Assembly (NCBI GenBank): GCA_011109175.1
Contig: RDEW01000072.1
Location: 1-64,000, forward strand
Reading direction: 5' to 3'
Source: Dicyema japonicum
Taxonomy: Eukaryota; Dicyemida; Rhombozoa; Dicyemidae
DNA length: 64,000 bases
Shown: positions 26,458 to 59,204 of the stretch, one piece after another
Layout: each line of letters begins with the position of its first letter
Numbering within the stretch: the first letter of the stretch is position 1
Made by a program: the position numbers and the translations under genes
The notes under the pieces: model-generated
What the model was told of the DNA's origin: nothing
Database searches by the model: none
What the model saw: only the letters and a program-made list of their open reading frames with translations

Positions 26458-27709
26458 CTACGGTTCTTCATTTGTGGATGTACTTTCTAGTAGAATGATA
26501 GTAGATGGAACAACTTCACTGTTGGTAGTAACAGGACACGTGGGTGTCATATCAACGGACACATTGGAAGTCAGACGATTGTTTGGTTCTAACACATCTT
26601 GTTTGCAAAGGGGACACAGTCTGTGGACTTTGATAAGCCAAGGATCAATGCATTTAACATGATATACTACCATTAAGAAATTAATTACTGTGTCTGCAGG
26701 GTAGTTCACGAACCTTAGTCCTTTCTGTAAACTCCTCCAAGCAGATAGCACAGCTGTCAAAATACTGATCTTCAACTAAAAACATTAAAGCAAATTAGCA
26801 AGGAAATGACTACTTCAAAGAGAAATAAAAATGACTAATTCAAAGAAATAAGAAAGAAAATGACTAAAACAATGGAAAAATGAAAAGAGCGGGAAATAAA
26901 GTAATTCTAATACTATAAAAATAAAAGGATAGGGAAAAATTATAAATACCTTTCATGTATAATATAACAGGCAGTTTCTTAATCTGTCTGGCGGGAAGTT
27001 TCGCCTTCCATTGTTCGTAGTAATAACGAATAAGCTTGGTGATCTAAAAGATTACACCACAACCCACCAGAAACGCTATAAAGACTAATATGCAAACGGC
27101 AACCACACAGGCGAACACAAATATATAATACTCAAACTGTGACCTTCCCTCTGGATCGGACATAACCCAATATCTAAAATCATAAATAAGAAAATATTTT
27201 AATAAATCAATAAGACAGACAAATTCGCGCTTAAACTATGCCAGACTAACTTAGTGCTGTTACTGTACATAAGTAGGTCCTTATAACCATAGTGTCCAAC
27301 CAAAAAAGACTGAATTTTCACCATGAAAGCATAGGGACTGTTAGAATGCATTTCAAATAGGTCCATGGAGTTGGGATCATAAATGATAGCCCCAACAAAC
27401 CCAGCCAACTGTGCGTTCAAGACCTACACGTAGGTTAGGTATAACCTTATCCAGAAAATCACAGTGGCCCCGTTCAATCAAGGAGATGGAATGATCGTTC
27501 AACTTATTGTAAGGGATTTTTGCACAAAAGTAGACGTCGGAAGGTATCACTAGTGATCCAACAACCTGAGTATAAGATGGACCGAAGGAAGCTGGTTGGG
27601 ACTTCACAATACTAAGAATAGTCCTATTCTCGTCGAAAATTGACAGATCACATATGCTGGTTGTTAAACACAGCAAAATTAGCAGATATAAACTCATAGC
27701 GGAAAACAC
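26458..27709 (-). CDS. PA-TM-RING E3 ubiquitin ligase, RNF13/RNF167-like
   Basis: Membrane-anchored E3 ubiquitin ligase of the Goliath/RNF13 family, which acts on endosomal or secretory membranes. Six exons, minus strand: 27709-27446, 27423-27221, 27173-27068, 27043-26950, 26775-26689, 26666-26458. Introns are 22, 47, 24, 174 and 22 nt, all GT-AG. Coding sum is 963 nt, 320 aa. Order: signal peptide (SLYLLILLCLTTSIC); PA domain ending in RGHCDFLDK joined across intron 1 to VLNAQLAGFVGAIIYDP; one transmembrane helix (FVFACVVAVCILVFIAFL); a basic linker (KLPARQIKKLP); RING-H2 with CAIC, CRHIYHVKC and CPLC, where the CRH-IYH junction is restored only by removing a 22-nt intron. No damage seen. 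Family is confident; which paralogue is not. Confidence 0.92.
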
Positions 27710-28129
27710 ACAATTAGGCCAATTTATTGAATCAAATTTTAATTATTTTTTTAAATTTAAAATCATTATTTTTAATATTCATTAAATAATTTAACTAAAT
27801 TTATTAATATTATCAATTATTTAATAAAATGTGAATTTGTCGGGAATTTAACTATAATAATTAAAATAGGTTACAGTCGGTTGTATGTTAATAGTATAAC
27901 TGTGGACTTGTGTAATATAATAATTGAAAATTAAGTTTCTAAAATTATAAATAATCGTGGTCACAATAATTTCATATTTCCTATTGAAATAATAACCACA
28001 ATACTGTAATTTGATATTTGAGGTTTTCATGTGGGTCATCTACTCTTGGAGACACTGCCTACAGTGGTAACTGACGACCCCCTTCTCTCCTTGGTATGCG
28101 ATTATTTTTTAGTTTTCTTAGTAGTGGCT
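27710..28129. other. AT-rich intergenic region upstream of the RNF13-like gene
   Basis: Very AT-rich, with no coding frame or transposon signature. It presumably holds the promoter of the minus-strand RNF13-like gene, but no defined motif is assignable. Confidence 0.4.
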
Positions 28130-29160
28130 ACAGAGCAAATGCAAGCTTACGTGCCCAGTTCTTTCTATTGATCCTCTGCAGAGATGTTGCGTAAAACCCT
28201 GGACCCACTGTTCGAAGGCTGAATGTCCTCCAAATAAGCATTAATGGGATTTCCAAGAAATGCAATATGAAGTACTTTCTATACAATTTTCTATGGACAT
28301 TGCACTCATCCAAGAGTCCAAGTTAACTCCAAAGTCTAATTGCCCTTGTTTTAATAACGATTCCATTATCTCCTCTGACCGTCTCTTTTCTGCAGCTGGG
28401 GGTGGACTTGTTATTCTTGTTAATGGGTCTATTCATTTTCCAATCATACGATTCCAATATGGAAGTTGTGTCTATCAAAGTAAATATCAATAATACCAGT
28501 TTCACATGTCAATTTACAAATCCACAGATTTCTTCGTGTCTTCCTAACTATACGTCGAAATTCCACTTTTTATATTGAGAACTGTATCTTAGTGGTGATT
28601 TTAATGATCATCCTGTCTGACTATTTTCTAGCAAACCTGATAAGCGTGGAGTGCAAATTATGTTTGATTTGGAGGATTAGATATTCTAAATGACCCTGTT
28701 CTACATACTCGTTGTGATTTACGTTCAGATCATTCTAATACTTCCCTCGATATCACACCCTGTTCTCAAAATATCGCCATCGATGCTCAATGTTATGTCC
28801 TTTATGACCTCCCGACATTATTAATCTTATTAAAGAACATAAAGAACACAGGAGAATCAAATGGATGAACACTGGCAAAGGAGAATCGAATATCTTTCTG
28901 AAATCAATAAGCGTATTGACATAATCTTAAAATACAATATCAACGAATGAAATGAAATTACTTCTACTCTAAATATTTATACTGGATCACATGTCTTTGG
29001 AGAACCTCAAGAAGATACACTCTATACAGATACCCGTTCGATCCTATTCTCTTTTTGAATGAGGCCCAATTGATGACTTTTATGTCTTCTCCCAATCGAG
29101 AGCGCCTTCCTTGTGTTCATTTAAACTCTGATCATAACTACACGAGGGCTTAGATCTTTA
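28130..29160 (+). mobile_element. LINE 5' part with 2A remnant and APE endonuclease
   Basis: Sense remains of an APE-type LINE. At 28171-28206 a frame reads ILCRDVA-stop-NPGP, a decayed 2A motif, followed by RRLNVLQISINGISKK, the usual start of the endonuclease. Then IDIALIQESK-like (28290-28325) and AAGGGLVILVNGSIHFPI (about 28395-28445). The remainder to about 29160 is badly frameshifted. A Tigger-like transposon begins at 29211. Confidence 0.72.
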
Positions 29161-29359
29161 ATGCATACTAAATCAATTGAATCAATTTGCTTAAAATTGT
29201 AAAATATAAGTACAGTAAAGTATCTCGAATTCGCCAATTATAACTAATAAATTCTCTAATCCGCCATTTTTTCTAACAAAATTTTTCGAATTTGCCAGAT
29301 TTTTTAATGAATCCACCATGTCTCTTAATTTAAAATAATTTTTTAAATAATTTTATAGG

Positions 29360-31615
29360 TAAATAAAAACCCTGAAGAGATTGATGACTTTTACACCAGT
29401 CTTTCTACCATCTTCTCCAAGTATGCTCTCTCAACATTAGTAATGATCGCAGGAGACCTAAATGCGAAAAATGGCAAGTTACGACCAATGAGACATTCAT
29501 GGGAAGGCACGGTAGGGGGAAAAGAATTCTCCTGGGAACCGTACTAGCTAACTTCTGTCAAACGAAGAACTTATTTGTGTACAATACAGCCTTCATGCAT
29601 CCAGCCAGACATAAATCAACGTGGTCGGGATATAGGGATTATACTTGATGCACGAGCTTATGATGGATCGATTATCGACCACAAAAAGGTTATTTCTAGA
29701 CTTTCTCTAAAGAGATTTATGATACTACAAAGATCGAAATTGGAAACACATTGGAACCACAGAGCCCAACTCTAGACGTTATAATTTGGAATCCTTAATC
29801 AGTCAAAAGGGGCCTAGATTTCAAAGAATATCTGGATACAGAACTAAAAAACATGCCTACAGATTTACCGCCCGGAAAATGATGGGATTTTGTAAAGAAG
29901 TCAATACACAAAGGAGCCAGCCTGCATCTATTGAAAGAACATGAAAAAATCCCATCGCACAATGACATGTACACGATGAAGGACCTTTCTAACAAAACCA
30001 TTTGGATGCTCTATCAAAATGCTGACGATTCGAACGTAAAATCAAAATTGGGGCTAGAAAAAAAGACTATCAAAGCAAAAATAATAAAAACTATACGTCA
30101 GCATAACAGAAATAGAACACTGGACCAGATTAAGAAGATAGAATCTCTCAAGGACAACGCTAAATTCTACGAGGCTGTTAAAAAGATAAAAGGAAAGAGA
30201 CTCCGTCAACCGATAATGATAAGAGATGACAAAGGAAAGCAGATTGTGGACCAAAAAGAAGTTGCGGTAATTATCGCTGCCCACTTTGGAAAGCTTTTCA
30301 ATCCAAGGAACGACAGTGTCTATAGTGTCTATCATTTTAGAACGAAGAAAATTGGACCAAGAAATCATACCATATGAAGTTGAACTTGCAAGTTCCAGAT
30401 TGAAAAACAACAGGATTCCTGTCCCCGACGGACTTGGTGGTGAATTCTTTAAATATGAAACCCAAAAACTTTATGAATGCATCGCTAGGATCCTGAATGA
30501 AATGTACTATTATGGTCACACGCTTACCCTGGGAGAAAGAATCTTGATAGCTGTACAAAAGAATAAACCTAAGAGTTAAGGTGGAGAACCTCCGTCCAGT
30601 CATATTAATAAATTCGGAAAATTCTGGTGAACATAACATTACAAATGGAAGGATGCCTAGATACTTTTCTGTCGCTATACCACAGCGGATTCCGAAAAGG
30701 AAGATCTACTTTTTATGGTCATACAAGTGGAGATCTGCGGCCGTTCGAAAGTTCAAAATGTCTACAACTATCCTCGGAATCGACATTTTGAGGGCCTTCG
30801 ACTCCGTCGACAGACGGATGCTAATACTGGTTCTGGGGAGTTTTCTAGACGCTTCTACTGTCAGAATGGCCACCACCCTCCTAGCTGATACTTGGTTCAC
30901 TGTAAAAGTCGGGAGAGCCTTGTCTCGCCGATTTGAGACGACTGTTGGCACTCCACAAGGAGATCCATTATCACCAATTTTTTTGGCATATACCTTGAAG
31001 CTGCTCTACGGGAGTCAAAACCGATAATGGGTGAAAAGACAAACATTATTGCGTATGCTTATGACGTAGACTTTATTTCAAATGACAAAATATCGCTCAC
31101 CCGCTTGTTGGAAGAAGTCCCTGGAAGACTAGCTGAATGGTACCTAACAGTAACTCCTGACAAGACTGAGGTAACTGAACTCAAGAGGGAAGAAACAAGG
31201 ACAGAGGAGTATTGGCGCAAGTGCAAAAAGCTTGGCTCCCTCCTTGGAGACCATGAAGACATTACAAGAAGGAAAACTTTAGCACAAACTGCTCTCTCTA
31301 GACTGAAACACACCTGGCTCCACAAAAAGGGTCTTGACATTATAACAAAAACTCGATTATACAACTCGTTAATGAAACCCATATTACTGTATAACGCTGG
31401 TACCTGGGCCTGCTCAAGAAATGAACTGAAGAGACTTAATGTGTTTCATAGAGACCAACTACGGCATATGATGTTCGAAAGAAGTGATACGAGGATGTCA
31501 TCTAATTTTCTTTATAAGAGGACGAAGACCTCAGAAATTTCTAATGAGATTCTAGATACACGAAGGAGGCTTTTCGGCCATATTCTGCGACTGGACCTAG
31601 ATGCCCCCGTGAACG
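29360..31615 (+). mobile_element. RTE-type LINE nested in the Tigger-like element
   Basis: Endonuclease middle (LSTLVMIAGDLNAKNGK, about 29430-29475), linker (29931-30377), RT (RMATTLLADTWFTVKVGR, TPQGDPLSPIFLAYTLK at 30950-30995; degenerate IIAYAYDVDFISN at 31047-31085, with YDVD for YADD), thumb (KLGSLLGDHEDITRRKTL), and a C terminus with LYNSLMKPILLYNAGTWACS and RRRLFGHILRLD. A 251-codon frame (31027-31782) is the longest in the window. This C-terminal pattern is typical of RTE-like endonuclease/RT elements. 5'-truncated. Confidence 0.82.
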
Positions 31616-31840
31616 TAAGGCTCCAGTTTTTCTCACTAATTCGTGTAGGGTTTAGAGGTGTCTGGGAAAGCCTTTGCAGAGCCTTACTGGCCATTTTTCG
31701 GAATGTATTGATTTTTCTATGTTCGCGTATGGTAGTTTGGTTTCCCATGCAGCACACCCGTAAGTTAGAGACGGTTGAATAAACTGCACATAGAGCGAGT
31801 CCACATTTGAGGTACACATATTCTTGGAGAAGATAGTTCT
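31616..31840 (-). mobile_element. LINE scrap of the 52-kb/62-kb family, antisense
   Basis: Matches the antisense LINE fragments at about 52250-52350 and 53858-53920 (CAGCACACCCGTAAGTTAGA, GAGCGAGTCCA). It sits between the RTE LINE and the Tigger C terminus, so it is a third insertion layer or a recombination scar. Confidence 0.65.
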
Positions 31841-32359
31841 TTAATATTCAAATGCTTCACACACGCAAAATGGATTCAAAAACATTGAAAATATAAATTA
31901 TGAAAACTCTGTTATTGAAAATACGAATATATTCTAGACAAAATGAACATAAGTGATCCTTTAGAAAAGATATTTTATATCGAAATTGACTACAATGAAA
32001 ATGAAGAACTTAATTTGAATGATACAAAGAAAATAGAACAAGAAATTGATAGTGAAGAACCCCTTGAAGAAAGTCAGAAAGGTGTAACTATTAGCGAGGC
32101 TTTTTTAGCCTTAAATAAATTATAAGAATTCTATAATCAAGAAGAATTCTTTAATGTCGAAAATCTTGAGTCTATTGAATAGCTTGGATCATCAATGATC
32201 CGAACTTTAAAAAGAAAAAAATCAATACTTAATATTTTTTATCTTATAAATAATTTTTTTTGATTTACATTATTAATGGATGAAAAAATCAATAAGTCTC
32301 TCGAATCAGCCAGATTTTGCCGATCCCCGAAATTGGCGGATTCGAGAGTCTTTACTGTA

Positions 32360-32749
32360 TTATTGATTATTATACACTTAACCACTACCAACCAAACTAT
32401 TTGGTAGCTGTTTGGTAAACGAGAGAGGTTGGATTGTTCACTACAAATGTAGGCAATTTTCAAATGTAAGCATTTCCCATCAATCAAACTGAAAAAAGAT
32501 TAGTCATAATTACATAACCACGTATGGTAATACTCTTCCATTATTTCCCCAATCTACACAATTGAGATTCTAACACCACTATTCTTTAATTCTTCATTTA
32601 ATCCACCAAGTTAGAAGAGACAAAGGGGTTATATTAGACATTTTCTAATACCTTACTACCAATCAGCTGTTTTTATTGGTTGGAAAATTGGATTGTTCTT
32701 ATATGAAGAATTATAAGTAATTTATTAGTATTGTTTTATCAGAATATTA
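32360..32749. other. Intergenic, no recognisable features
   Basis: AT-rich flank of the Tigger-like element. No gene or repeat recognised. Confidence 0.4.
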
Positions 32750-33067
32750 ATGTCTAATAAATCCCCCTATTTTGGAGTTGGTTTTCTGGTTACTCTATAT
32801 TATGCATGTTCACCCCGAAACACTAACAATGACGTCATCATCCTCCACTTGTTCCTGTCATGTGCTAGCTTCTGTAGTCCAGCTGAGCCTTCTCTGTGAA
32901 ACGTCACCTAATCTTGGAACTTATCATCCAGAAGTAGTGGTAGTAATGATGTTATTGATGAAACGGAACCTCGATTCTGTCTGATTGAGTGGGACATTAA
33001 GTTGTCAAAAGGAAACGATATTGCTTGTAATCGACCAGTGGCCTTCTCACAAGATCAGCACGAATAA
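32750..33067 (+). CDS. Possible small two-exon gene, unknown product
   Basis: An ATG at 32750 opens 146 nt, then a GT-AG intron of 36 nt (32896-32931), then 136 nt to a TAA at 33067; the frame closes at 93 codons. The N-terminal part has a hydrophobic segment (FGVGFLVTLYYAC), the second exon is acidic (NDVIDETEPRFCLIEWD). No family recognised. Only intron size and frame closure support it, and an alternative 70-codon frame overlaps (32772-32984), so treat it as a candidate. Confidence 0.28.
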
Positions 33068-33305
33068 ACAAATTAAAGTTATGTTTTTGTCATGTGTGTG
33101 AAGTACAATAGACCATGAATCTATGGCAAATATATAATCATTGTGGATATTATATTTAAGACTACATTTTATTTACTGAATAAATTATAATAATAACTTA
33201 AAAAAACCATAAAAACCACTAAAACGCCTAATTAGACCAAAAGTGTGTCTACGAACCCTCAAAGAAAACAAGATACTGGAGGGCAGACATCCTTAGATGA
33301 GTGCA

Positions 33306-33569
33306 TCAGATCTGCTTCTTCCGAGGACCGTGGACTTCATCTGTTTTGGTTGGAGGATAGTTCGGCATCTTTTTGCTTGCTCTGGACCAAAAAGATCCGG
33401 TCATGTTTTACTGGGCGTTTTTGACGATTGCCAGTTTTCTACATGTTTTTCGAAACTAAATATTTAATTAGTCTATCCATACATGAGATCCTTGAAATAT
33501 TAAACCTCCACTCCATTTTTTATTTTTTTGAAGGTTTTCTGCAACTGCAAAAACTGGATTTATGTCCAT
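33306..33569 (-). CDS. Possible small three-exon gene, unknown product
   Basis: Minus-strand exons 33569-33483, 33455-33412 and 33381-33306 with GT-AG introns of 27 and 30 nt give a closed 68-aa frame, basic and soluble-looking (KKWSGGLIFQGSH, then KKMPNYPPTKTDEVHGPRKK). No family recognised. Intron sizes match the confirmed genes here, but short frames arise by chance in AT-rich DNA, so confidence is low. Confidence 0.28.
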
Positions 33570-34749
33570 CCTCTGGTTATGTAAATATGTGTGCGATCTT
33601 GGGATGACTTTCTATCCTTGTCTACGATTGGAATACTGGGTACAGTTAATGTTATCCCTTACTCTGTATTATTAGCGACAAACATGTAATCGTGTACTCT
33701 ACAATTATATATTCCGCGCTCGGATGATCCTGTCAACAATCGTTTTCACCTCCCTATAAGACTCTACGGATCACTATGGTCTTCTTTTTCTTAGTGCTCT
33801 CTTTATCGGTCTCAGATCGCCAATACAAACTCCTCGATGTTTTCGGAGGTAATTAACTTAACAAAGTTCTATAATTGAAAATTTAGTAAAATTTGTGGTT
33901 TCTCATTATTGTACAGTCGACTGTGAAATAAAGTAAAAAAGGTTAGTTTTAATAATTTTATGACAGTCTCCATAACGAACAGTTGTGCAGCCTCAGTTCA
34001 GTAGTGGTGCATAATAGTTCCTTGTAGTATTCTCATTAATGTTGTAGTCCCTCAATGTTATTCATGTTTTGTGTAATTAAATCATTATGCTGATTACAAA
34101 ACATAGAAGTACCTTAGCTTACTGTCCTTCAAATATAAGTGGTAGTAAGCCTACATTACATCCGCTAATATTCCTCTCAGCTTGATATGGTGACTTTGCA
34201 CGTGTTAATTAGTTCCCGTTCATTTCTGCAGGTGTAACCATTTCCACAAGTGGGTTTCCTGGTTCTTTGCATAAGCGCAAAAAACCTGGAATTTAAATCT
34301 TATATGTCAAGTGGTAATACTCTAAAGATGAACATACACGATTTATGAAAGTTTTCTGTTCCGATCCCTTTATCCGGGAAAAGACTACACAATGGAGTCG
34401 ATATCTTGCATAAAGTATAGGCACGTGCGATAATTCAGTTACTTCAATAGGGAATTGTGAAAAATACATTATAATAATTCAAATATGTACACGTGGGTAT
34501 TTATACTGTACGTCATCCTATGGATAATTATAAACTTAGCCACGTGGATAATTACGTTGTAGAACTACTTTGTTACAGATTTAGACGTATTTCGATATTA
34601 TACAAACATGTCTGACATGGACACGTGGGTTACAGTGAGATGGATGCATTATTGAGGATACATTAACAACTCATTTGTCTCTTATTTACAAATACAGCAA
34701 TAAAGTCATTTCTTAAAAGCAAAGCCAATAAACAAACTTTACAAATTAA
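33570..34749. other. Intergenic region with a cluster of CACGTG palindromes
   Basis: No closed gene. CACGTG, the core E-box, occurs at about 34199, 34422, 34490, 34539 and 34622, with two more in or next to RPA3 (34755 and 34891). Several share extended context (CACGTGGGT, CACGTGGATAATTA). A signal-peptide-like start at 33775 (MVFFFLVLSLSVSD) cannot be extended into a convincing gene. Confidence 0.4.
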
Positions 34750-35171
34750 CTAAGCACGTGCGTAGTAGAACTGACTGTTGTCCACCAACATTCCCACAAC
34801 CTGGTCATACAGTTTAACATCTCAGTAAACACAATCATTACCAAATTTCTCGACATCTTCTCTGGGGAAAACTACATAATTATCACAGACCACGTGTCTC
34901 TCACTGCTGACTATTCCCCATAACTCAATAATGCCATCCAATGGTTCACTCAGCTGTGTGATCACACTAATATACTGGTTGTTGAAGTAAAACTGTGACG
35001 TCATAGTTGTCGGAGGTTTTCATAACGAATGATCTCTGATTAGCAGCAGTCTACAGTGAACATGTAAGGAATAACTCTAATCACGTTGCCTATTAGACAT
35101 ATCTGTTTGCCTATGAAATTGTCTATCATTGAGCCATTTATTCTGAAACGCGGTTCTGCCACCTCACTCAT
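34750..35171 (-). CDS. RPA3: Replication protein A 14 kDa subunit (RPA3)
   Basis: Smallest subunit of the RPA single-stranded-DNA-binding heterotrimer used in replication and repair. Minus-strand exons 35171-35076, 35050-34976, 34953-34842 and 34820-34750 with GT-AG introns of 25, 22 and 21 nt sum to 354 nt, 117 aa (human RPA3 is 121). OB-fold landmarks appear in order: RINGSMIDNFIGKQICLIG, NVIRTAANQRSFVMKTSDNY, LSEPLDGIIELWGIVSS, HVVCDNYVVF, and the C-terminal amphipathic helix EKFDVKLYDQVVGMLVDN that forms the trimer interface. Two introns break exactly at conserved positions, and the last 21-nt intron restores EKF-DVKLY. No defects. Confidence 0.9.
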
Positions 35172-42273: not shown

Positions 42274-43860
42274 TACAACCATTTAGGACCCATGACATTT
42301 CTCAATTCCTTGAGCGCAGCTTCGAGGTAAACAATAAATATAATTGAGGACAAGGAATCTCCTTGTGGAGTGCCCATGTTGGTACTGAAACTCTTCGAAT
42401 GCTTTGTTCCTATTCTCACGGATAGGTCAGTTTCGGAAAGTAATAAACTTATTAGTCTCAGGCAGTCCTCATCAAGCAGTTCCTTTAGAACAATCATGAG
42501 TTTTTCTCTATTGATGCTGTCAAAAACCTTCGTTAGATCAATTCCTAGGATGTAGATTACTTTCGTGTATTTTTGACATATTGATGTGAGCCATCGATGA
42601 CTCCACCAATATCTGAGGTTGATCTTCCACTTCTAAACCCACTTTGACTTAGGGAAAGGTATTTTTCCACTGGCTTTCGTATACGGTTAAGCACTATGAT
42701 CGATAAGGTTTTCCTGATAACTGACAATAGAATAATAGGTCTTAGTCCGTCCAACGACCCTTCTTTTTTCCCAGGTTTATGTATTGGAATTAAGACTCCA
42801 TGTCCCAAAGGAAGTGGACAGTGAAGTTCCATCGACTCATTTAAAATATTCGTGATTATATTCCCAACAGTAACCGGGGCATGTTTTAGTAACTCACACG
42901 GAATGCCATCATAACCAGCCGTCCGATTTCCCTTTAGATGCATAAATGCATCGGTTACTTCCTTTATTGTAATTTTGTTTGTAAGGGGTCTCGGATATCC
43001 AATAAATTTAGGTACATTCATCCCTTCAGATTTAAACAACGACTCGAAGTGTCTAGCAATATAATTTGCTTTATCCTCAGGGTTTTGAAGATATTGACCT
43101 TCGTCGTCATAGACTTTCAGTGGTTTCTTTGCAGTTCCTCGTGTAAGTAGTCTAACAGCAGAGAACATTCGTCTTCCATACTGACAGTTTTCGATTTCAG
43201 TTGCTTTATCGTCCAAATATTTGTGCCAAAGGATATTTGATCGTCTTTATCAGATGCGATATTTGATTGCGTTTTCTCCTTAATGCACATTTATTCGAAT
43301 TTGAACTTCCCAGTTTCGAACGTATTTCTTTCTGCTGCTCAGACAATTCTCGAATTATGGGGTCATGAATCATTCGTCTATTTTGTTCTTTTTCCTGGTA
43401 TCCAACAGTCTCTATCGCCGACAGTTTTAGAATATCCAAGATCTTCCCGAGGTCAGTCGAGGGGGTGCCACTGGGTTCAACTCCACGTAAACGTTTAGAG
43501 ACATTTTGTTAGTATCTCTTTTGCCAAGCGTCAAAAGTCAACATTTCCACAGCCAAACGTCTATTTAGAGGTGTGCTTTTCCTTCTTGATTGCCTCAATT
43601 CCGTAGTATCGTTTGAGATTTAATCTGGCCACCGTTAGCTTATGGTCACTGTCAGTAGTGGTTCCTCCATAACTCCTAGAGTCAGACAGAAGTCTCTTCA
43701 AGGAGATAGGGCAGATAATGTAGTCTATTTGGTTGAATATGAACGTATGTTCGTCTTTGGACCTTCTTATGCCAACCCAAGTAGTTCTATGTTTTGCTGG
43801 ATGTTTAAAAGTGGTATTGCATAAATACAGATTTGATGAATTACAAAAATCCATGAGTGA
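42274..43860 (-). mobile_element. RTE-type LINE, antisense, truncated by the MULE
   Basis: Minus-strand endonuclease C terminus (TTWVGIRRSKDEHTFIFNQI, GGTTTDSDHKLTVARLNLKR, 43561-43854), linker (43206-43439), RT with LKGNRTAGYDGIPCELLK, LRPIILLSVIRKTLSIIVLN, LSQSGFRSGRSTSDI (42557-43216) and GTPQGDSLSSIIFIVYLEAA (about 42300-42375). The YADD region and C terminus are missing because the MULE starts at 42273. Frame breaks near 43216 and 42560. Confidence 0.85.
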
Positions 43861-44940: not shown

Positions 44941-45293
44941 TTAAATTTAATTTTTTGTAGTTAATAAATCATTCATAAAATTAATTGAAGTTAATCTTGG
45001 TTAGATTAATGCAACAGGCAGCTGAAGACATAATGTTGGATTGTAACTAACGACTGGCTTAAACAAACAATAATAAACAAGCTAAGAAATATAAAACGAT
45101 CTGAAAGCCGTGAAGAAAACATTGGCATCTGGTGACAATCTGGACTCACTGAAGAACCTAGTTAAGAACAGAAGAGCTTGGAGCAAGCTAACTAATTCTC
45201 TTTTACTTTTTTGCTGCATTTAAATATTATGGCTCTCGTGAAAGTGCTAATAATAATAAAAACATGTAGTCAAAAACACATCATTTATCAAAG
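44941..45293. other. Spacer with a SINE 3' scrap
   Basis: Mostly unassigned. At about 45222-45262 the SINE 3' end TATTATGGCTCTCGTGAAAG followed by TAATAATAATAA is recognisable, a heavily 5'-truncated plus-strand copy. Confidence 0.55.
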
Positions 45294-45988
45294 TCATTCA
45301 GATCTTTTTTGCTTAGCATAAGTAATACAGTCCCCGAATAAGTCTGAAAAATATTTAATGGACTGAATTGAGTCATCGTTGGCGGGGATTTGATAGCTCA
45401 CATAAGAGGAATCCGTCCGGAGTGTCAATCACGGACACTGTAGGAATCATGTATTCGGAACATTGGCGGATTGCTGGGTGAGACAGAGGGCTCGACATGG
45501 ACAAAAAGACACAAAGGTCAGGAAATCGAACATACTTGGACTTGAAGATAACTGACGGTTCACTGAAGGTTCTGGAGCTCCACGTTCGGCAATGAGCGTA
45601 CTCACCACAGGCCTTGGCCATTCTCTCCACAATGTGGACTGCAAAAGGATTATCGCAAAAAAACAGAATTATTCCTTCTCTGAAGGCCACGTGAGAAACC
45701 ACGTTGAGGGAATCAATTGTCATATTACGTGCAATGTTCAGGTCGATGATATCAATTCCACATCTCTCTCCTAATATAAACCATTCGTTTGATCTGTTTC
45801 TCAACCGGCTATCGTGACCCATGTGAGTCCGGGCTTTCACCATGTCGGATATCCGCACTCTGTCGGCTACTTTGAAGTAATCTTCGATTTCGAGTGGATT
45901 GTTGATTGCTAATATTAATATTTTACTTACAATTTGCAATTCGAATATTGGAGAGGGCACGCCAGAAAAAATTAGCTGGAGACCTCAT
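45294..45988 (-). CDS. MRPS2: Mitochondrial ribosomal protein S2 (uS2m), with an apparent frameshift
   Basis: Small-subunit protein uS2m of the mitochondrial ribosome. Exon 1 45988-45931, a 22-nt GT-AG intron (45930-45909), then exon 2. The sequence reads ISDMVKARTHMGHDSRLRNR, CGIDIIDLNIA, VVSHVAFREGIILFFCDNPF, YVRFPDLCVFLSM, SHPAIRQCSEYMIPTVSVID, all in the uS2 order (H-x-G core, PDL, HP-I-E, IP-x-x-VDT). Straight reading stops at 45373 after DTPDGFLLCELSN. The other frame gives the expected tail, SYQIPANDDS and then CITYAKQKRSE, ending at 45294. The fault is one extra base between about 45405 and 45417, so either an assembly error, a recent lesion or +1 frameshifting. Family assignment is secure. 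Confidence 0.88.
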
Positions 45989-50060: not shown

Positions 50061-50384
50061 TAAACTTAAGTCCACAAATACGATGATTTCACACATGCAT
50101 TTAATTCATCTGCTGTTTTATCTATTGTTAATTTTTGGTTATTTAAAGTTCTGTAAAAATGAGAGGCGTTTATTTTTTGTGAATATCTATAATGAGTAAT
50201 GTTGGAAATTCAAAATTTGCACAATTGGTAACTAATTAACATGATTTTTATTTTCAGAATGGCATGTATTATTCAGAAATGGTATTTATACATAAAACAT
50301 TGGTCAAATTAATAAATTTCTATTTTAAATCATAAAAAAATAATTTTTTTCAGCAGAATTTATATTACCTCATGAATATCCTAT
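50061..50384. other. Unassigned AT-rich sequence
   Basis: Possibly more decayed Helitron sequence; nothing specific recognised. Confidence 0.3.
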
Positions 50385-50720
50385 TTAAGTTTTTTTTTTA
50401 AATTTCAATTTTCTCAGTAACAGATCAATGGAAGAGGTCGAATCATCTTATTTTCCAATGAATCTCTTTTTAAACTTTTTTAGAATTTTAATTTTCTATG
50501 TGACCGATCTATTGAAGAGGTCGAATCATCTTATTTTGAAGTGAATCTCTTTTTTTAAAACTTTTTTAGAATTGTTAATGTTCTAAGGAATCGATCTAGT
50601 GAAAAACTCGAATCATCTTTTTTTCAATGAATCTTTTTTTAACTCTTTTTAGAATTTTATTTTTAATGGACTGATCTCTTGAAGACGTTGAATTATCTTA
50701 TTTTGCAATTATCTTTGGCA
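50385..50720. repeat. Degenerate tandem repeat, about 80-85 bp units
   Basis: Four imperfect units, each with GTCGAATCATCTTATTTT (or a variant) followed by AATGAATCTCTTTTT, then TTTTTAGAATTTT, then a GATCTATTGAAGA-like segment. No coding potential. It lies just upstream of a (GACA)n microsatellite. Confidence 0.75.
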
Positions 50721-50749
50721 TATCTTGTTTAGCTATATAAGTGCGCACG

Positions 50750-50778
50750 GCGACAGACAGACAGACAGACTGACAGAC
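50750..50778. repeat. (GACA)n microsatellite
   Basis: CGACAGACAGACAGACAGAC with one interruption, followed by TTATTCTTTTATTATATAGA. About 29 nt. Confidence 0.9.
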
Positions 50779-50819
50779 AACTTATTCTTTTATTATATAG
50801 ATAGGTCCTTCCAAATAAT

Positions 50820-51590
50820 TCCAACAAACGTTTTTCCAAAAATTACGGGGGAAACAAAAAAATCAACGGACCCTGGAGAAAATATTCTTCAGAAATAAGA
50901 AAAATAGTGATGATGGCGTTGCTGCATCATATAAACATCGCTTTACTTATCGCCAAGTCGGGGAAACCACACACAATTATGGAGGAACTGATAATCCCAT
51001 CAATTCATTAAGAACTGAAAACAGTAATGCACCAACCTTCCAAGAATATTAAGTCGATTTCGCTTAGCAACAATTCGATACAGAGACGTATTGATGATAT
51101 CGCTTTCGATGTTGAAAACGATCTTTGTTAAAAATACTGAAAAATACGGAATTCAGTCTACTGTTAGATGAGTCAATACTTTTTGGAAATGACACATTAT
51201 TGCTTGCATTTGTACGTTTTGTCAAGAATGGTTGAATTATGCAGGAATTACTTTTTGCTCGAAAGCATGAAACTGATACAAGCGGGAAATCAATGTTCGA
51301 CAAAGTGCATGAATTTCTCTGCCTTAAAGATATACAATTAACACATATAGTTGCATGTGCAACTGATGGGGCATTTTCAATGATTGGTCGCTATTACGGT
51401 TTTATGGCATACTTAAAACAACATGTACCAAATGTAATGACGATTCATTGTGTGATCCAACGACAGCTTTTGGTTGGTAAAAATACAAATGAGCGTCTAC
51501 ATGACTCTCTCAATACAGTTATTTCTGCTATTAAAAAAATAAATTAAATTCACGTCTTTTTCGAGAGCTATGTATTGAAAACGATGAAGA
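50820..51590 (+). mobile_element. hAT transposase core remnant (ZBED5/SCAND3-like), sense
   Basis: A 102-codon frame (51239-51547) reads MQELLFARKHETDTSGKSMF, THIVACATDGAFSMIGRYYG (catalytic D in CTDGA, Gly-rich) and NVMTIHCVIQRQLLVGKNTN (the HC-IHR box). Broken upstream frames contain EFSLLLDES, the first catalytic Asp region. This is the catalytic core absent from the internally deleted hAT copies at the start of the window. Truncated at about 51600 by a SINE. Confidence 0.85.
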
Positions 51591-51622
51591 TTCTATACGA
51601 CTATTAATACTATTAATACATA

Positions 51623-51895
51623 GCAGGGTGGCATAGTGGTTAGGTGTCGGGCTTAAGTAGCTTAGGCACATCTACGATGCCAAAAGGGCTTGACGATTGA
51701 CGACGTCATCAGTGGATACTCACTCGGAACTGGATTGTCTAAAAAAGACCCACACACAAGAAAAAGAATAAGTGAAAATCATTCCTTGTTCTACAATTAG
51801 TTAAAATTAACTTTCTTTACTTAAATAAAGTGTGAGTCTTGCCTATGCAAAGCTATAAATATTATGGCTCTCGTGAAAAGGCTATTATATTAATA
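51623..51895 (+). mobile_element. SINE, sense, B-box region deleted
   Basis: Head GGTGGCATAGTGGTTAGGTG, then a deletion removing the B box and start of the body, resuming at CACATCTACGATGCC; GACGACGTCATCAGTGG; tail TATTATGGCTCTCGTGAAAA and GGCTATTATATTAATAA. A short flanking repeat, ATTAATACATA on the left and ATTAATAATACATA on the right, suggests the target duplication. Confidence 0.85.
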
Positions 51896-52249
51896 ATACA
51901 TACTAAAGTACGTTAGTTCTCAAAGAGAGATTGTTTGGCGCGGATTTTCTCTCTTTTCAGCACCTATTAGAGTGGCATCATGTGATCCACCTGTCTAGGT
52001 GACGCCCAGTGCCAGGCCGGCACGAAAAAGGATCATTTGCTCTTCCCCACTACACTGGAGGAGTTTCAACAACTGTATGTAATGGACGTTAAATTTGAAC
52101 TTAATATAATTAAAAACCAAAAATCACCGACAAATTAATAACTACCGGCCGCGTCGAGTAGCCATCTCATTCTTGCTCGTGTTCTTCCCTGGTTCCAACG
52201 AATTTTCGGATTAGGCGGGGGTTTCTAATTGGAGGGTAGGTAAACTCCT
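51896..52249. other. No recognisable features
   Basis: About 350 nt between the SINE and the antisense LINE array, with locally higher GC. Nothing assigned. Confidence 0.35.
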
Positions 52250-53857
52250 GTTTTCCTCACTAGTTCTCAAAAGGTGTGGGTTTAGAGGAGTCCAAGAAAA
52301 CCATTGCAAAGCCTTACTGACCATTTTTTGGAAGGTATTGATTTTTTCAATATTCCTGTTTGATGACGTTGTCGATGTGCTTGCTGAAGGTCAAGAGTGG
52401 GTCGTAAGTTACGCACAGTATCTTGACCGAGTTGGTCGTGGGGATTGAGTTTTTATTTATGGTTACACATGGAGCGGAGTTTTCAATCTTCTGTTTGTTA
52501 TGAAAATTGTTGTATAAGACTTTTCGGGAATGTATGTAGAATGTTCTTAACGAGCCAACAGTTCATATCGTCCAATGAAGCTTGTATCCGGTAAACAGCA
52601 GTATTAACGCACCTGACTTTGACTGGGATGATTATATCATCCACACATGTCAGATCCAGAGTATCGTCATTTGTAAGGAAGGATATATCATTTAAGAATA
52701 GGTTGAATAGGTGTGGTGAAAGTGGAAATTTTTGAGGGACCCCATTTGGGAGGAAATTGGTCACTTATCTAGTTTTCCAGCAGTTACTATTCCACTTCTT
52801 CCATTTAAGAAATTTGCGATCCAGATTTTCAGGTAGTTTGGAATTTTTGACGTAGAGATCTTCCTTATCAAAAGCTTTCTTGGAGCAGTGTCGAAAGCTT
52901 TTTCTATATCGATGGAGCATAACAAAGACTTCTGATGAGGTTTGCGCTTTAGTCCATCCTGATGAAATTTGTAAGGCATGTAAGATGCGTTTCTGTAAAA
53001 TGTCCTTTTCTGAATCTGTGTTGAAAAAGTGCATCAGGAAAGTATGGTTTGACTCTTGACTATATTCTGTACGTTCTCCACAGAGTAGACAATAGGGGAG
53101 GTGGCTCTTTTAGGTTTTGAGGGCTAGGATGGACCTTCGAATTTCTTCTTTGGGATGAAACTCGTGGAGGAGTAGTACTTCATAATTTTGTTTCTTGTTT
53201 TCCATTTCATTACGTGTGGCCGGGTTGTCAGCGTTAATAAAGCTTCTTAGTGTTTTTCACATTTTTGTAGGGGAGTTCTGCTTGTTTAGATTGGACATGA
53301 GGTTTTTACAAACTTTCTGCTTTTTTGCATTGTTCCTGATCTCTCTTTCTAATGTACGAATTCTCAATCTTGTTTCCCAGGATTGTTTTTTGGAGGCTTT
53401 TTATGAATTTTCTTTCTTTTATGATTTGATCGGCTCTGGGGGAAGACGTATTTCTTGAGGTCAGTGGCCTTCTTTTAATATTAATTTTCATTTCTTCGCG
53501 TACCACTCTATTAAAATAGTGTAGTGCTTTATCGATGGAGTTGAAATTGAATAAATGAAAGTCAAGTTGATCATAGTCGACGAAATTTGAGAACTTTTGC
53601 TAGTCGACATTTTTTTTGTCAGTAAATAAAACAGGTTTCTATACAAATTGACACTCTTTCTTCAAACGTAATCATAACTGGATTATGTTCACTGTTGGTC
53701 TCGTATAGCACTGTCCATTTTGTTAATATTGCGATGTTTGATAAGACAAGAGTGAGATCGGTCATTCGCTCTGTGGGAGTCCTTGTATTGAATGTAGGGT
53801 TATCTAATATTATCTGGTCATCCAGATTTGATAACAATTGGTTTCCTCTGACATCCA
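52250..53857 (-). mobile_element. LINE fragment unit 1 of a head-to-tail array, antisense
   Basis: Minus strand: endonuclease C terminus (LSNIAILTKWTVLYETNSEH, NPVMITFE, 53619-53861), linker (53306-53506), RT with HQDGLKRKPHQKSLLCSIDI then EKAFDT (52761-52979), NGVPQKFPLSPHLFNLFLND and LDLTCVDDIIIPVK, a YADD changed to CVDD (52498-52764). The fragment lacks both the endonuclease start and the 3' tail. It joins unit 2 at 53857/53858. Confidence 0.85.
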
Positions 53858-55082
53858 GCACACCCGTAAATTAGAGACGGTTGAATATACTGCATGTAGT
53901 GCGAGTCCAAATTTGAGTTGAAACACCCATTATCAAGAAATGTTTTAACAAAATTTATCTTTCGTTGTGCCGAAGAGATGACGTTGTCGATGTGCTTGCT
54001 GAAAATCAAAAGTGGGTCGTAAGTTACGCACAGTATCTTGACCCAGTTGGTCGTGGGGATTGAGTTTTTATTTATGGTTACACATATAGCGGAGTTTTCA
54101 ATCTTCTGTTTGTTATGAAAATTGTTGTATAAGACTTTTCGGGAATGTATGTAGAATGTTCTTAACGAGCCAACAGTTCATATCGTCCGATGAAGCTTGT
54201 ATCCGGTAAACAGCAGTATTAACGCACTTGACTTTGACTGCGATGATTATATCATCCGCATATGTCAGAACCATAGTATCGTCATTTGTAAGGGAGGACA
54301 TATCATTTAAGAATAGGTTGAATAGGTGTGGTGAAAGTGGAGATTTTTGAGGGACCCCATTTGGAAGGAACTTGGTCACTTATCTAGTTTTCCAGCAGTT
54401 ACTATTCCTCTTCTTCCATTTAAGAAATTTGCGATCCAGATTTTCAGGTAGTTTGTAATTTTTGACGTAGACATCTTCCTTATCAAAAGCTTTCTTGGAG
54501 CAGTGTCGAAAGCTTTTTCTATATCGATGGAGCATAACAAAGACTTCTGATGAGGTTTGCGCTTTAGTCCATCCTAGATAAAATTTGTAGGGAATTTAAA
54601 ATGCGTTTCTGTGGAGTTTCCTTTTCTGAATCCGTGTTGAAAAAGTGCATCAGGAAGGTATGGTTTGACCCTTGACCATATTCTGTACGTTCTCCACAGA
54701 GAGGACAATCGGGGAGGTGGCTCTTTCAGGTTTTGAGGGCTAGGATGGATGGATTTTCGAATTTCTTCTGTGGGATGAAACTCGTGGAGGAGTAGTAGTT
54801 CATAATTTTGTTCTTGTTTTCCATTTCATTACGTGTGGCCGGGTTGTCAGCGTTAATAAAGCTTCTAAGTGTTTTTCACATTTTTGTAGGGGAGTTCTGC
54901 TTGTTTAGATTGGACATGAGGTTTTTACAAACTTTCTCTTGCTTTTTTGCATTGTTCCTGATCTCTCTTTCTAATGTACGATTCTCAATCTTGTTTCCCA
55001 GGATTGTTTTTGGAGGCTTTTTAGGTAATTTCTTTCTTTTATGATTTGATCGGCTCTCGGGGAAGACGTATTTCTTGAGGTC
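53858..55082 (-). mobile_element. LINE fragment unit 2, antisense, cut at 55082
   Basis: Starts with the C-terminal RT segment (YMQYIQPSLIYGCAG, 53860-53900), then KHIDNVISSAQRKINFVKTF, NGVPQKSPLSPHLFNLFLND and an intact YADD region, TYADDIIIAVKVK (54113-54379). Nearly identical to the unit at 61691-63283. Ends abruptly at 55082 in the linker; unrelated sequence follows. Confidence 0.85.
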
Positions 55083-55224
55083 AAAATGACGTTAAAACCA
55101 CATGACGTTAAAATTTCACTTAATGTGAAAATATAATTTGCTGATATTAATTTAATCAATGTATTATTTTTTAAAATTAATTTCGACAAAGTCACTTATT
55201 TCTGCTATTATGTCGAATTGACCT
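55083..55224. other. Junction sequence after the LINE array
   Basis: Short AT-rich junction containing two copies of ATGACGTTAAAA. No feature assigned. Confidence 0.4.
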
Positions 55225-55720
55225 TTATTTTGTAGGAACAGGAAAGAATTACTCCAATTTCCACGTCTCAACGGTCTTAAAGACTTTCTTTCTGAAGATA
55301 AATTCGAAATTTATATTGAACATTTGATCACTCTTCAATAAGATATGAAGGGACGTTTCAAAGATTTATGTCAACTCAAAGTTCCAGATTGGGTAATAGA
55401 CGCCTTTCAGAATGTAGATGACTTTGAATCTTGTAGTCAAGAAGAACTAATTATGTTAAAAATACGATTTTGAAATTAAACCCACTTATAAACACTTGTC
55501 GTTTCAAGATTTTTGGTTACAAAAAGATATTCCTGAAAAATTTTTATGGAAAAAATCAAAATTGTTTTTTATTGCTTTCCCTACTTCTTATTTTATTGAG
55601 AGAGGCTTCTTACCAAAAAGAGAATCCGCTTGGACATTGTTGAAAGAGGAGATCTACGAATTAGGCTTACAAACATGAACTTAAATATTGAGTATCTTGT
55701 GTCTAACTTTTTGCAACATC
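55225..55720 (+). mobile_element. hAT transposase C-terminal remnant (SCAND3/FAM200-like)
   Basis: Broken plus-strand frames: ELLQFPRLNGLKDFLSEDKF, FKDLCQLKVPDWVIDAFQNV, then a 60-codon frame (55496-55678) HLSFQDFWLQ, FIAFPTSYFIERGFLPKRES. DWVI-PF, FW and FPTSYF-ERGF are landmarks of the C terminus of SCAND3/FAM200-type hAT transposases. Confidence 0.8.
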
Positions 55721-55769
55721 ATTTTTCAGATTAATTATTAATTTTTTTTTATTTCCAACTCGTTACCAT

Positions 55770-55960
55770 ATAGGTTTCCCCGGTGGGCGATATTTTTTAA
55801 AAATTTGTTAAAGGGAACGATGACCTGAATATGTTTGGGAACCCTTGGACTACATCGTCCGCAGTGGAACGATCATTTTCGATTCTTAACAAAATCTTAT
55901 CCAAGGATAGGAATTTTAAACCGGATAATGTAAAATATTATTAATTGTGAATAACTCGAT
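55770..55960 (+). mobile_element. Second hAT dimerisation-domain scrap
   Basis: Plus-strand reading MFGNPWTTSSAVERSFSILN then KILSKDRNFKPDNVKYY: the hAT dimerisation motif (VERSFS-L...L...RNF--DNV). It belongs to a different hAT lineage from its neighbour at 55225. Confidence 0.7.
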
Positions 55961-56129
55961 AAACGATGATTAAAATTACTTTAAATTTTCATAAGCGTAG
56001 TTTATATATGAAAATAAAGTTGTCACTAATATTTTTAGGTCAATTTTTAAAATTTTAAGATCATTAAATTGACTTTTTAAAGTCAATTTTTATTTTTTTA
56101 GTCAATAAAAATGTTGCCCTACTTATTAC
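55961..56129. other. AT-rich spacer
   Basis: No feature recognised. Confidence 0.4.
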
Positions 56130-57800
56130 TAACCATTGTTGGAGAAAACAGCAAAGACCTCTCTAGAAGACCTAAAGATAGCAATAAGAGCTGTCAAGAA
56201 TAAAGCTCCGGGTAGTGATTTCATCAAATATTGGATGTTCAAAGAAGGCTTAGAAATTTTATTCGTAGTTCTCAAAGATATGTTCAACGCATGCATCAAA
56301 ATTAGTCATGTTCCACACGAATGAAAGAAGACTATTGTACGGATGGTAGCGAAGACAGAGAGACCGAAGAATGATCCTGCTAACTACCGTCCGATCAGTC
56401 TAATTCGGTCAATTTCTAAAATTATGGAAAAATTGTCTTCTGGAAAAATAAGACAGTTGAAAAAAAGACTATCTCAGGAATGATCAATTGGATTTTCTCC
56501 CAACACGGTCATGCGGTGATTGCTTATTTCATCTCAACTCCGAGTTATGCAAAGCCAGAGAATCCAAATGTTTCCTGAATGCCATATGTCTCGAAATGTT
56601 TCCTGTATATTAACCACGGAGCCATAATCGGTCAGTTATCTCGGATGGGAAACCCAAAAGAACTAGTGAATTGGGTGAAAGTGTACCTAAAGGAAGAAAC
56701 TCCTATGTTAGATTCGGACGCTATTTTTTAAATATGATATTATTGAAGAGAGGAATCCCACAAGGATCAATTTTGAGCCCTCTATTGTTTAATGTTCTAA
56801 TGGCCAGTTTCCCGTCTCCGAGTACACAAAGTACGAGATAACTGATATATGCAGACCACGTCCAACTGTCTGATGTATCGAAATCGAGCATGGTCTCAGA
56901 GAGGAGACTTAATGTGTACATGGAAGAGATAAAAGACTGGTGCGATCTTCATTGGTTAAAACTGTCAGAAAAAAGATCTAACGCAACGAGGTTCTTCTGT
57001 TGGAATGGTAAAAAAATAAAAAAGGCTCCGTATGCGGAATCAACATTGTGAGCTCCCTGAAGTATCTCGGAATAGCTTTTGAGAAATTTGTGAGCATATT
57101 GTGCGATTTAAATTCAAGAGGTCGTAGGAGATCTTGTGCAATCAAAAAAGACATTATTTGTCAAGTGGTAGATGACTGCAATGCGCTCAAAATAGTGTGA
57201 AAAGTTCATAGATATAAAGGGATTCCTGGATTCAATACTGTCGTGGAAAAATGTTTCAAGACAATTCTGAAGCATATAGTAAAAGTTTTTTGTCTCTAAT
57301 TTTACTAAAGATGAGCTCGAATTTAATTTTTCGAGGGTCAATTTGAATTCACACCTGTGGAGATCCTGTCACGATTATTGAAAAATTTGGTACTTCCTCC
57401 TTTTTAAATCTTCAACAGTGCTCGCTTCGGAAATCGCAAGAAATTACAAGACTGACTAGTTTTCTAGCCGATCTCCGTTGAGACGTCTAACATTATTCAC
57501 TCTAGCACGTCTGAGTTTATCAGGTCAATCGTACGGCTTGCGGAAAAGCGGAAGGGTGAACCTAGAATGACGCGATGGTTTTTCCAGAACGTTGGGCTTA
57601 CGATTATAAGAGGTAGCTCCCATTGCGTATTTCCATATTGTTTTTGAGACATTACCAGCACTTAAAAACTAGAAAATGCAGACGACCTAGACTTCATCCG
57701 AAAAATCGCCTTCTCAAGGAAAGCGTGGAGGAATCTAACGTGAAAAATTGTCCACGGTGTTGCAGAAGCGACTAGATAACTTTCTTTTAGTTGCGTTTTG
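56130..57800 (+). mobile_element. LINE (RT) of a further APE-type family, sense
   Basis: RT start LEDLKIAIRAVKNKAPGSDF (56159-56220), NYRPISLIRSISKIMEK (about 56380-56430), then a frameshifted palm, LNSRGRRRSCAIKK and a C-terminal conserved piece ADDLDFIRKIAFSRKAWRNL (about 57680-57740), like the DR-AWR tail of non-LTR RTs. Heavily decayed, with many stops. Confidence 0.7.
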
Positions 57801-58024
57801 CAAAATAATAACTCCCATTACGTTATCAATGCCTCCAGGCCATAATGAACAAATAACCGACAAATAATTGCAAAATTGGAAAACAATTTTATCAATGTTG
57901 ACAATCTGCGAAGAAAATTCATTCTATATGGCTTAAAAAGAGATAACAAAGATTACTTGACCTAAACTGGGAAATAAAGCTTCAAAACACACAAAAAATA
58001 AAAAATCCATCATATAAATAACTC
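57801..58024. other. 3' flank of HSD17B7, no recognisable features
   Basis: AT-rich. It may contain the polyadenylation region of the minus-strand gene. Confidence 0.35.
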
Positions 58025-59204
58025 TTAGTCAATTGTTACAGAGTACAGGAACTGTTCAAGAATTGAGTAGTATTTCAAAGCGTCATTACGAAATGAGGAG
58101 TCTTCGTTCTAAGAAAGTTAACAAGAAAATCATATACACAAATCTTCAGCACAGAAACTGAACCGGCGATGCTAGTTGAGCAGTGATACTTGGCGGAAAA
58201 GTCCCATGTGTCAACATTCTTATCTACAGACAAATATTTGAGCATCTGAGCAGCGTTCTCAGGAGACATCGTCAACTCAGGAACTAGAGGTCTCATCTGC
58301 TCACAACCAATCCCTTACCAAGCACAGAATAGGATGGAAAAGGGACCAAAATGACATTGGCATTATTCCCAAGGTCATCGGCGTCACAACCATTCCAGGA
58401 TTTCCAACAACAGAAAATATGTTCTAAGAATGCGATTCAGTGAAAAACCAACATGGGATTCACGGAAATGCAAGTTAATAGCGGTACTCAATAGGTCCAC
58501 GGCATATTTGGAGGCGGAGTACGGTTGTCGGCTGAAAATATTACTTAAACCAACGTGTTTTCAAATTGGATGTCGTTGAAAGCAAATTCACTTTTGTTGG
58601 CATTCGAAGAAGATGTCCAGACTATTCTCGAAAGTTCATCTCCTCCCATGAGATCCACAAGGGAAAGGATTAGCTGAAAATGACCAAAAACGTTTGTGGC
58701 AAAAATCTCCCGCATACCGTCGGATGTTAACCGGTCTTCCTGACAGAGGAGACCGTGGCCAGTCGAAAACATGTTAAAAACGTCACTTTTTAATAAAATA
58801 GAGTTACCGAGAAAATAAAGTTTTAAAAAAGTAGCTCCATACAACATGACAAGTTCCCATGACTCCGGCGTTACAAATAAGAACATCCACGTGCCCAAGT
58901 CTAGGGAATGATCATAAGATACTTTTGCTTTATTTCCTGAGATGCTTTCAGAATTGAATTAAGTGAACTAATATCCATTAAAATGAGATCAAAGTAGCAG
59001 TTTGTAAATTTTTCTTTTAACGAATTGAGGGCCTGGAGACCACGAGCCTCATTTCTGCAAGCCAATATTAAATGCAAAGGAGAGCATGTATCAGAAAGAA
59101 GTTCTGCAGTTGAATAACCAATTCCACTTAATTTTAATTAATTTACTTTACCTGTTTGCTCCTGTTATTACTACCCTCATTAAAAACGCACTTTGAAATG
59201 ACAT
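58025..59204 (-). CDS. HSD17B7: 3-keto-steroid reductase / 17-beta-HSD type 7
   Basis: NADPH-dependent short-chain dehydrogenase that reduces the 3-keto group in post-squalene sterol synthesis (and 17-keto steroids in vertebrates), ER-associated in animals. Eight minus-strand exons: 59204-59152, 59126-58923, 58900-58808, 58785-58555, 58531-58453, 58423-58319, 58296-58138, 58108-58025. Seven GT-AG introns are 25, 22, 22, 23, 29, 22 and 29 nt. Total 1008 nt, 335 aa (human 341). Seen: cofactor motif TGANSGIG, restored across intron 1; CNAG; the family-specific KTLFSRDVFNMFSTGHGLL and EIFATNVFGHFQLILSL; RIVWTSSSNANKSEF; catalytic YSASK, with its Ser in WTSS; VVGNPGMVVT. An inner ATG at 59180 (MRVVITGAN) matches the usual start and is an alternative. 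No lesions. Confidence 0.92.

Follow-up and report, generated by a model that had tools for sequence, protein, structure and literature searches.

Introduction

Ultra-short introns of dicyemids are already known in kind, because they were reported in 2007, 2010 and 2019. In Dicyema acuticephalum, 16 introns with a mean of 26.2 nucleotides (nt) were described (Aruga 2007; PMC2222250), and a 2008 survey tabulates 41 introns of the same species, with a mean of 24.93 nt and an A+T content of 69.89% (PMC2483917, Table 2). Section 15 of that survey assigns dicyemid 5' sites 0.5 bits, the 'weakest known', and gives no branch signature for them. Ultra-short introns in 40 dicyemid genes are credited to Ogino (2010) in PMC6543705, whose own figures for Dicyema sp. 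put the median at 27 nt and roughly two thirds of introns below 30 nt (Zverkov 2019). For Dicyema japonicum, the genome paper lists 65 Mb estimated and 67.5 Mb assembled, a GC content of 36.7%, 6.2 introns per gene and a mean intron length of 38.2 (Lu 2019; PMC6736024). Introns of the orthonectid Intoshia are longer (median 57; PMC6543705). Here, we analyzed the introns of four genes in a 64,000-nt stretch of the D. japonicum genome, referred to as the window (positions 1-64000 of contig C188, in an assembly of 64,672,829 bases and 191 contigs), together with those of conserved genes elsewhere in the assembly.

The introns are very probably spliceosomal introns of the ordinary kind that have shrunk almost to the minimum that the host's own spliceosome would handle. 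They are like those reported for D. acuticephalum in being spliceosomal and ultra-short, with weak 5' sites, and in occurring in ordinary animal genes. They differ in their mean length, which is 23.5 nt here, and in carrying a weak branch-like signal, whereas the dicyemid section of the survey, which used C-T-R-A-Y-type motifs, reports none. The figures of Zverkov and Lu come from genome-wide gene predictions that include long introns, whereas the present sample consists of a few conserved genes. An earlier note on this stretch had stated that published dicyemid work reports introns of this kind, and the published means of 24.9-26.2 nt and median of 27 nt agree with it. What is added here, besides conserved recognition segments in the U1, U2 and U6 small nuclear RNAs (snRNAs), is the branch-like signal with its spacing, the minor snRNAs and a bias in stop codons. 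We found no dicyemid report of any of these last three in the open-access literature, subscription papers being outside the search.

Introns of similar size or structure are found in distant eukaryotes. In Paramecium, more than 95% of introns are 20-34 nt long, and in-frame stops in those of a length divisible by three reveal selection against introns open to translation (PMC11334263, PMC5014332). Yarrowia and Trichomonas, in the account given by PMC2483917, share with the present introns a branch, here a putative one, a few nt from the AG and the lack of a polypyrimidine tract, but they are intron-poor with a strong consensus, whereas the genes sampled here are intron-dense with a weak one. 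The nucleomorph of Bigelowiella natans, a vestigial algal nucleus, likewise has spliceosomal introns near a size floor, there of 18-21 nt according to the comparison in PMC2222250. The earlier note had placed the window introns near the lower physical limit for spliceosomes, which is overstated beside these nucleomorph introns.

Size class of the introns across the genome

Our intron sample comprised 27 genes: the four window genes, Prp8, and nine chaperonin, five actin or actin-related and eight kinesin loci. It contained 153 distinct GT-AG introns of 20-30 nt, with a mean of 23.53 nt, a standard deviation of 1.68 and a mode of 23. There were 51 introns of 23 nt, 29 of 24 nt, 28 of 22 nt and 22 of 25 nt, so that 130/153 measured 22-25 nt. 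With 153 introns in 27 genes, the claim that ultra-short introns are a trait of this genome is strongly supported. The more specific claim of introns of exactly 22 nt describes the window, where 7/16 have this length, but not the genome, because the class is one of 22-25 nt with 23 nt the commonest. The excess of 22-nt introns in the window (7/14 short introns vs 21/139 elsewhere, Fisher p 0.005) comes from four genes.

For an outside test, we turned to Prp8 on account of its high conservation. The draft Prp8 matched Prp8 of many eukaryotes, the first being that of a fish (76% identical over the draft), and a C-terminal piece matched human Prp8. A spliced aligner that charged the same cost for any GT-AG intron between 10 and 1500 nt, given eight outside Prp8 proteins as references, placed 31 introns in this gene, 30 of them at 20-26 nt. 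An 11-nt call by the aligner is put down to an apparent one-base frame break. By eye, this break lies in a T run of locus L047 (C87:1213001-1223000), near profile column 1087, in a Prp8 that is otherwise open.

The borders were then exchanged for other dinucleotides on Prp8. Among 18 pairs, GT-AG gave the best score (10565), and the 17 decoys scored 3462-10053 with wider length ranges. The best decoy, TA...AT, reached 10053 with lengths of 10-28 nt; the nearest decoys have borders made of A and T only, and such borders can fall within the same A+T-rich introns.

These results bear on the possibility that no introns are involved and that the segments represent assembly indels, frameshifts or pseudogene scars bridged by chance GT...AG pairs. 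One-base frame breaks do seem to occur, in the window gene MRPS2 near 45373 and at the Prp8 site with the forced 11-nt gap. However, the 153 distinct segments have dinucleotide borders, size class and composition in common, the decoy borders fit Prp8 worse, and cutting out the segments gives gap-free alignment to conserved proteins (RPA3 and Prp8). We therefore consider scars of this kind an extremely improbable explanation.

Pfam exon coordinates, which are free of the aligner, gave a similar size range: 33/36 neighbouring exon pairs imply introns of 20-28 nt, and the rest imply -1, 1 and 46. The rows used were 40/40 for chaperonins, 65/70 for kinesins and 3/32 for U2AF, and pairs were taken only if their model coordinates lay no more than six positions apart. 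For the chaperonins, outside references alone reproduced the final intron list in six of the nine genes. No protein among the best 120 of 5144 matches exceeds 51% identity to CCT4. The kinesin profile was built from this genome only, so the independent part of the sample consists of Prp8, CCT4 and the actins. Protein-guided spliced alignment took the place of a de novo codon-model gene finder, whose power proved insufficient when it was run on the window and 15 loci.

Introns compared with exons

The exons of the 23 genes outside the window contain 642 GT-AG pairs spaced at 20-26 nt, vs 132 true introns. A+T content alone separated introns from these exonic pairs with an area under the curve (AUC) of 0.887 (Prp8 0.996, chaperonins 0.904, kinesins 0.858, actins 0.793). 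The branch-like motif described below gave an AUC of 0.758 by itself, and combining both measures with the border bases in a simple sum, weighted by hand, gave 0.943, a value that is not cross-validated.

Splicing machinery

Genes for the major spliceosomal snRNAs were present in several copies. U2 matched 25 places, 22 of them above the Rfam cut-off, and GTAGTA was found in 10/10 loci read. U6 matched 10 places, nine above the cut-off, with ACAGAGA in 9/10 loci read. U1 matched 11 places; its 5' end, ACTTACCTGG, was kept in 9/10 loci read (L029-L038), and its body was divergent. The snRNA alignments covered two U1 copies, one U2 and one U6. Exons of a U2AF65-like protein lie on contig C114, and the introns implied between them are 22 and 23 nt long. 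Because these RNA segments and Prp8 give no sign of an unusual spliceosome, a standard one acting on whole tiny introns would be the simplest reading.

For the minor spliceosome, a U12 gene (85.4 bits, cut-off 53; L040, C68:163471-163599) and a U6atac gene (37.0 bits, cut-off 33; L092, C34:237761-237858) were found. Judging from these two genes, the genome has probably retained a minor spliceosome, and minor introns may then be ultra-short as well. Across 92 loci and the window, no short intron exactly matched both a TATCCTT 5' site and a CCTTRAC branch site. The chaperonin gene C53A (C53:262144-266529) has a 23-nt intron, GTATCCTCACAATTTCACTTTAG, which starts with GTATCCT, similar to a minor-type 5' site, and in which the minor branch site is missing. 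It is possibly a converted minor intron.

Several findings weigh against the reading as small spliceosomal introns. A further 40 segments fell outside 20-30 nt, namely 38 aligner calls, 11 of them below 20 nt, and the 47- and 174-nt introns of the window. Many of these are probably artefacts at unconserved protein ends; a 49-nt kinesin intron and the 174-nt window intron look real. The 47-nt intron, which lies in the RNF13-like gene, has a 77-nt GT-AG alternative (27174-27250) that closes the frame equally. The chaperonin and kinesin profiles took in the genome's own predicted proteins, and their borders are less independent than those of Prp8 and actin. The branch-like motif separated kinesin introns poorly (AUC 0.611), and GT-AG pairs of intron size were not depleted in exons (0.0680 vs 0.0626-0.0667 at other spacings). 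No U1 match was above the Rfam cut-off (best 69.0 vs 69.5), and each U2AF65-like exon scored below the cut-off of the whole-protein model.

Splice-site and branch-like signals

In the 5' site columns of 103 introns, A or T predominates at +3 and +4, while +5 holds a G in 21/103. The match to CAG/GTAAGT over the 153 introns averages 4.92 of 9 positions, vs 3.95 from composition alone. With so low a match, U1 pairing would be weak.

An unanchored expectation-maximization search of 73 introns recovered T-N-A unprompted, with Y favoured next (log-likelihood 21.9 vs 6.9-12.1 in four shuffled sets). In the 3' band, where the A of T-N-A-Y falls at -10 to -6, the motif was present in 103/153 introns, vs 60.0 ± 5.8 in per-intron shuffles that keep composition (0/2000). 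In the adjoining band, -15 to -11, it was present in 73, vs 60.4 expected (38/2000). The branch-like A peaks at +16 (27%) and +17 (18%) or, counted from the other end, at -7 (25%) and -8 (16%). The signal is placed in introns of 20-24 nt. Among those of 20-21 nt, the A lies at +15 to +17 in 8/10, vs 2.3 expected (0/1500), and at -9 to -7 in 4/10, vs 2.2 expected (229/1500). This suggests that the distance from the 5' site to the branch may be the rigid one.

The case for a 5' anchor is tempered by other counts. The choice of +15 to +17 as the band was made with the peak already known. Over all lengths, +15 to +17 and -9 to -7 were equally enriched (80 and 84/153), so that support for the 5' anchor comes from no more than the ten shortest introns, and +12 to +14 was somewhat enriched too (58/153 vs 39.5). 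Introns of 25 nt (6/22 vs 5.8) and of 26-30 nt (3/13 vs 2.7) had no placed signal at +15 to +17. The Prp8 introns, whose interiors are nearly without C and G, have the motif in 24/30 in the 3' band and in 25/30 at -15 to -11.

Such counts leave room for another explanation, in which the T-N-A-Y signal, and the excess of stops described in the next section, are by-products of A+T-rich composition and there is no placed branch site. The section on dicyemids in PMC2483917, with its 41 D. acuticephalum introns lacking a branch signature, agrees with this, as do the missing placement at 25 nt and above and the spread of the Prp8 motif beyond the 3' band. However, the shuffles, which keep the composition of each intron, account for 60.0 of the 103 occurrences, and in the chaperonin introns, which are less rich in A+T, the signal is strong (47/59 vs 19.4). 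The stop excess, moreover, is confined to one length class. We consider composition by itself an unlikely explanation.

In-frame stops

Introns outside the window were sorted by length modulo three. Among those divisible by three, 35/40 have an in-frame stop, vs 26.8 ± 2.3 expected from shuffles preserving phase and the three end bases (5/4000). The other two length classes were at expectation (20/42 vs 21.9 and 25/57 vs 24.6). A retained intron that is divisible by three and free of stops would be translated through, and the excess speaks indirectly for a decay of unspliced messages.

The same pattern of stops is described for Paramecium and other eukaryotes in PMC11334263 and PMC5014332. The present case differs from Paramecium, as treated there, in that the host is an animal with the usual three stop codons and lengths divisible by three show no clear deficit (40/139 introns outside the window). 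A hunt for missed stop-free introns divisible by three, whose omission would skew the stop counts, in six clusters of at least five unaligned residues, gave one 33-nt candidate. By eye, 2/6 of these clusters hold a 22-nt GT-AG segment missed by the aligner, and these segments stand outside the 153.

Genes and other features of the window

The window has a GC content of 0.356; this value, like the assembly size and the intron size class, fits the published dicyemid figures. Its four intron-bearing genes, all on the minus strand, contain 16 introns, every one GT...AG by three-frame reading and scripted splicing (Table 1). All but two are 21-29 nt long (14/16), and all 16 lengths are those listed in the earlier note.

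Table 1. Intron-bearing genes of the window and their introns (CDS, coding sequence)
Feature	Positions	Strand	Basis
RNF13-like gene, PA domain and RING-H2, 5 introns, CDS 951 nt	26458..27697	minus	spliced reading, Pfam
RNF13-like intron 1, 22 nt	27424..27445	minus	
RNF13-like intron 2, 47 nt, borders uncertain	27174..27220	minus	
RNF13-like intron 3, 24 nt	27044..27067	minus	
RNF13-like intron 4, 174 nt	26776..26949	minus	
RNF13-like intron 5, 22 nt, within RING domain, CRH-IYH rebuilt	26667..26688	minus	
RPA3 (RPA14) gene, 3 introns, CDS 354 nt	34750..35171	minus	splicing, Pfam, alignment
RPA3 intron 1, 25 nt	35051..35075	minus	
RPA3 intron 2, 22 nt	34954..34975	minus	
RPA3 intron 3, 21 nt	34821..34841	minus	
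MRPS2 (uS2m) gene, as far as first stop	45373..45988	minus	reading frame, Pfam, alignment
MRPS2 intron, 22 nt, upstream of conserved part	45909..45930	minus	reading frame alone
HSD17B7-like short-chain dehydrogenase gene, 7 introns, CDS 1008 nt	58025..59204	minus	splicing, Pfam, structure matches
HSD17B7 intron 1, 25 nt, TGANS-GIG rebuilt	59127..59151	minus	
HSD17B7 intron 2, 22 nt	58901..58922	minus	
HSD17B7 intron 3, 22 nt	58786..58807	minus	
HSD17B7 intron 4, 23 nt	58532..58554	minus	
HSD17B7 intron 5, 29 nt	58424..58452	minus	
HSD17B7 intron 6, 22 nt	58297..58318	minus	
HSD17B7 intron 7, 29 nt	58109..58137	minus	

The spliced products belong to the families expected of them, as judged by Pfam matches and by alignments of RPA3 and uS2m. 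Among the motifs said to be rebuilt over junctions, the two marked in Table 1 were recovered. Exact closure of the frame had been claimed for three genes. It holds for RPA3 and HSD17B7, which have no internal stops. The RNF13-like coding sequence is shorter than the 963 nt claimed, because its ATG is at 27697, and the start proposed earlier, 12 nt upstream at 27709, is not an ATG.

The spliced RNF13-like protein matched the PA (37.9 bits) and RING-H2 (50.0 bits) models, and by eye has a signal peptide and a membrane helix. RPA3 matched Rep_fac-A_3 (56.5 bits), and its alignment with human RPA14 is gap-free at all three junctions. HSD17B7 matched adh_short (88.1 bits); its matches to solved short-chain dehydrogenases lie mostly in the first 100-180 residues. 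A whole-genome search for adh_short in unspliced sequence, with 19/28 candidates scored, gave 22 matches, none of them on the window's contig.

MRPS2 matched Ribosomal_S2 (60.3 bits), and residues 21-183 align with mammalian uS2m. The intron just precedes the aligned part, so it is the reading frame that places it. The frame had been expected to reach 45294, and stops instead at 45373. By eye, a C-terminal segment that we take to be conserved seems to resume in a different frame past this point. The apparent one-base frame break lies within 45290-45400, where there is no space for an intron. Assembly error, polymorphism and decay are all compatible with it.

Other sequences in the window were noted. 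Fragments that match the reverse transcriptase RVT_1, at 30581-31024, 42560-43216 and 63546-63965, the first two below the curated cut-off, are probable retroelement remains between genes. Two similar open frames of 144 amino acids (4144-4578 and 10859-11293) are probably copies of one repeat; a Pfam scan of the first gave no match. Tandem arrays occupy 50394-50709 (83-nt unit, 3.8 copies) and 22872-22967 (21-nt unit, 4.6 copies). Elsewhere in the genome, actin is strongly multiplied. Two actin pairs have equal scores, C94:965106-966273 with 1001667-1002834 and C137:1183609-1184823 with 1197299-1198513, one of the two pairs being inverted and the other in the same orientation.

Proposed mechanism and implications

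If these are ordinary spliceosomal introns, recognition would proceed by intron definition over all 23 nt, the paired sites being read jointly with the A+T richness. U1, and later U6, would bind at the weak 5' site, and U2 would pair in the usual way at T-N-A-Y, about 15 nt on, with the AG a few nt later. The size floor would then be set by the roughly 15 nt that separate the 5' site and the branch, plus the few nt to the AG. Since no polypyrimidine tract fits between branch and AG, U2AF would have to act on T-rich sequence elsewhere, perhaps upstream, or not at all. Introns that escape splicing would be cleared by translation-dependent decay, which would account for the stops in introns divisible by three.

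With slightly less than even confidence, we propose that dicyemid-type introns keep their branch site about 15 nt past the 5' splice site, and that this spacing, rather than total length, fixes their size near 22-23 nt. As part of the same proposal, the minor spliceosome would be kept, its introns maybe ultra-short too, and translation-dependent decay would back up an error-prone recognition.

Gene finders and RNA mappers with a larger minimum intron will misread genomes of this kind. The minimum length of an intron, and what a spliceosome must see of it, is an open mechanical question, for which an animal with conserved Prp8 and snRNAs and introns of 23 nt offers a natural test case. Should the branch A have to keep a distance of about 15 nt to the 5' site, this would be a direct prediction for spliceosome structures and reporter assays.

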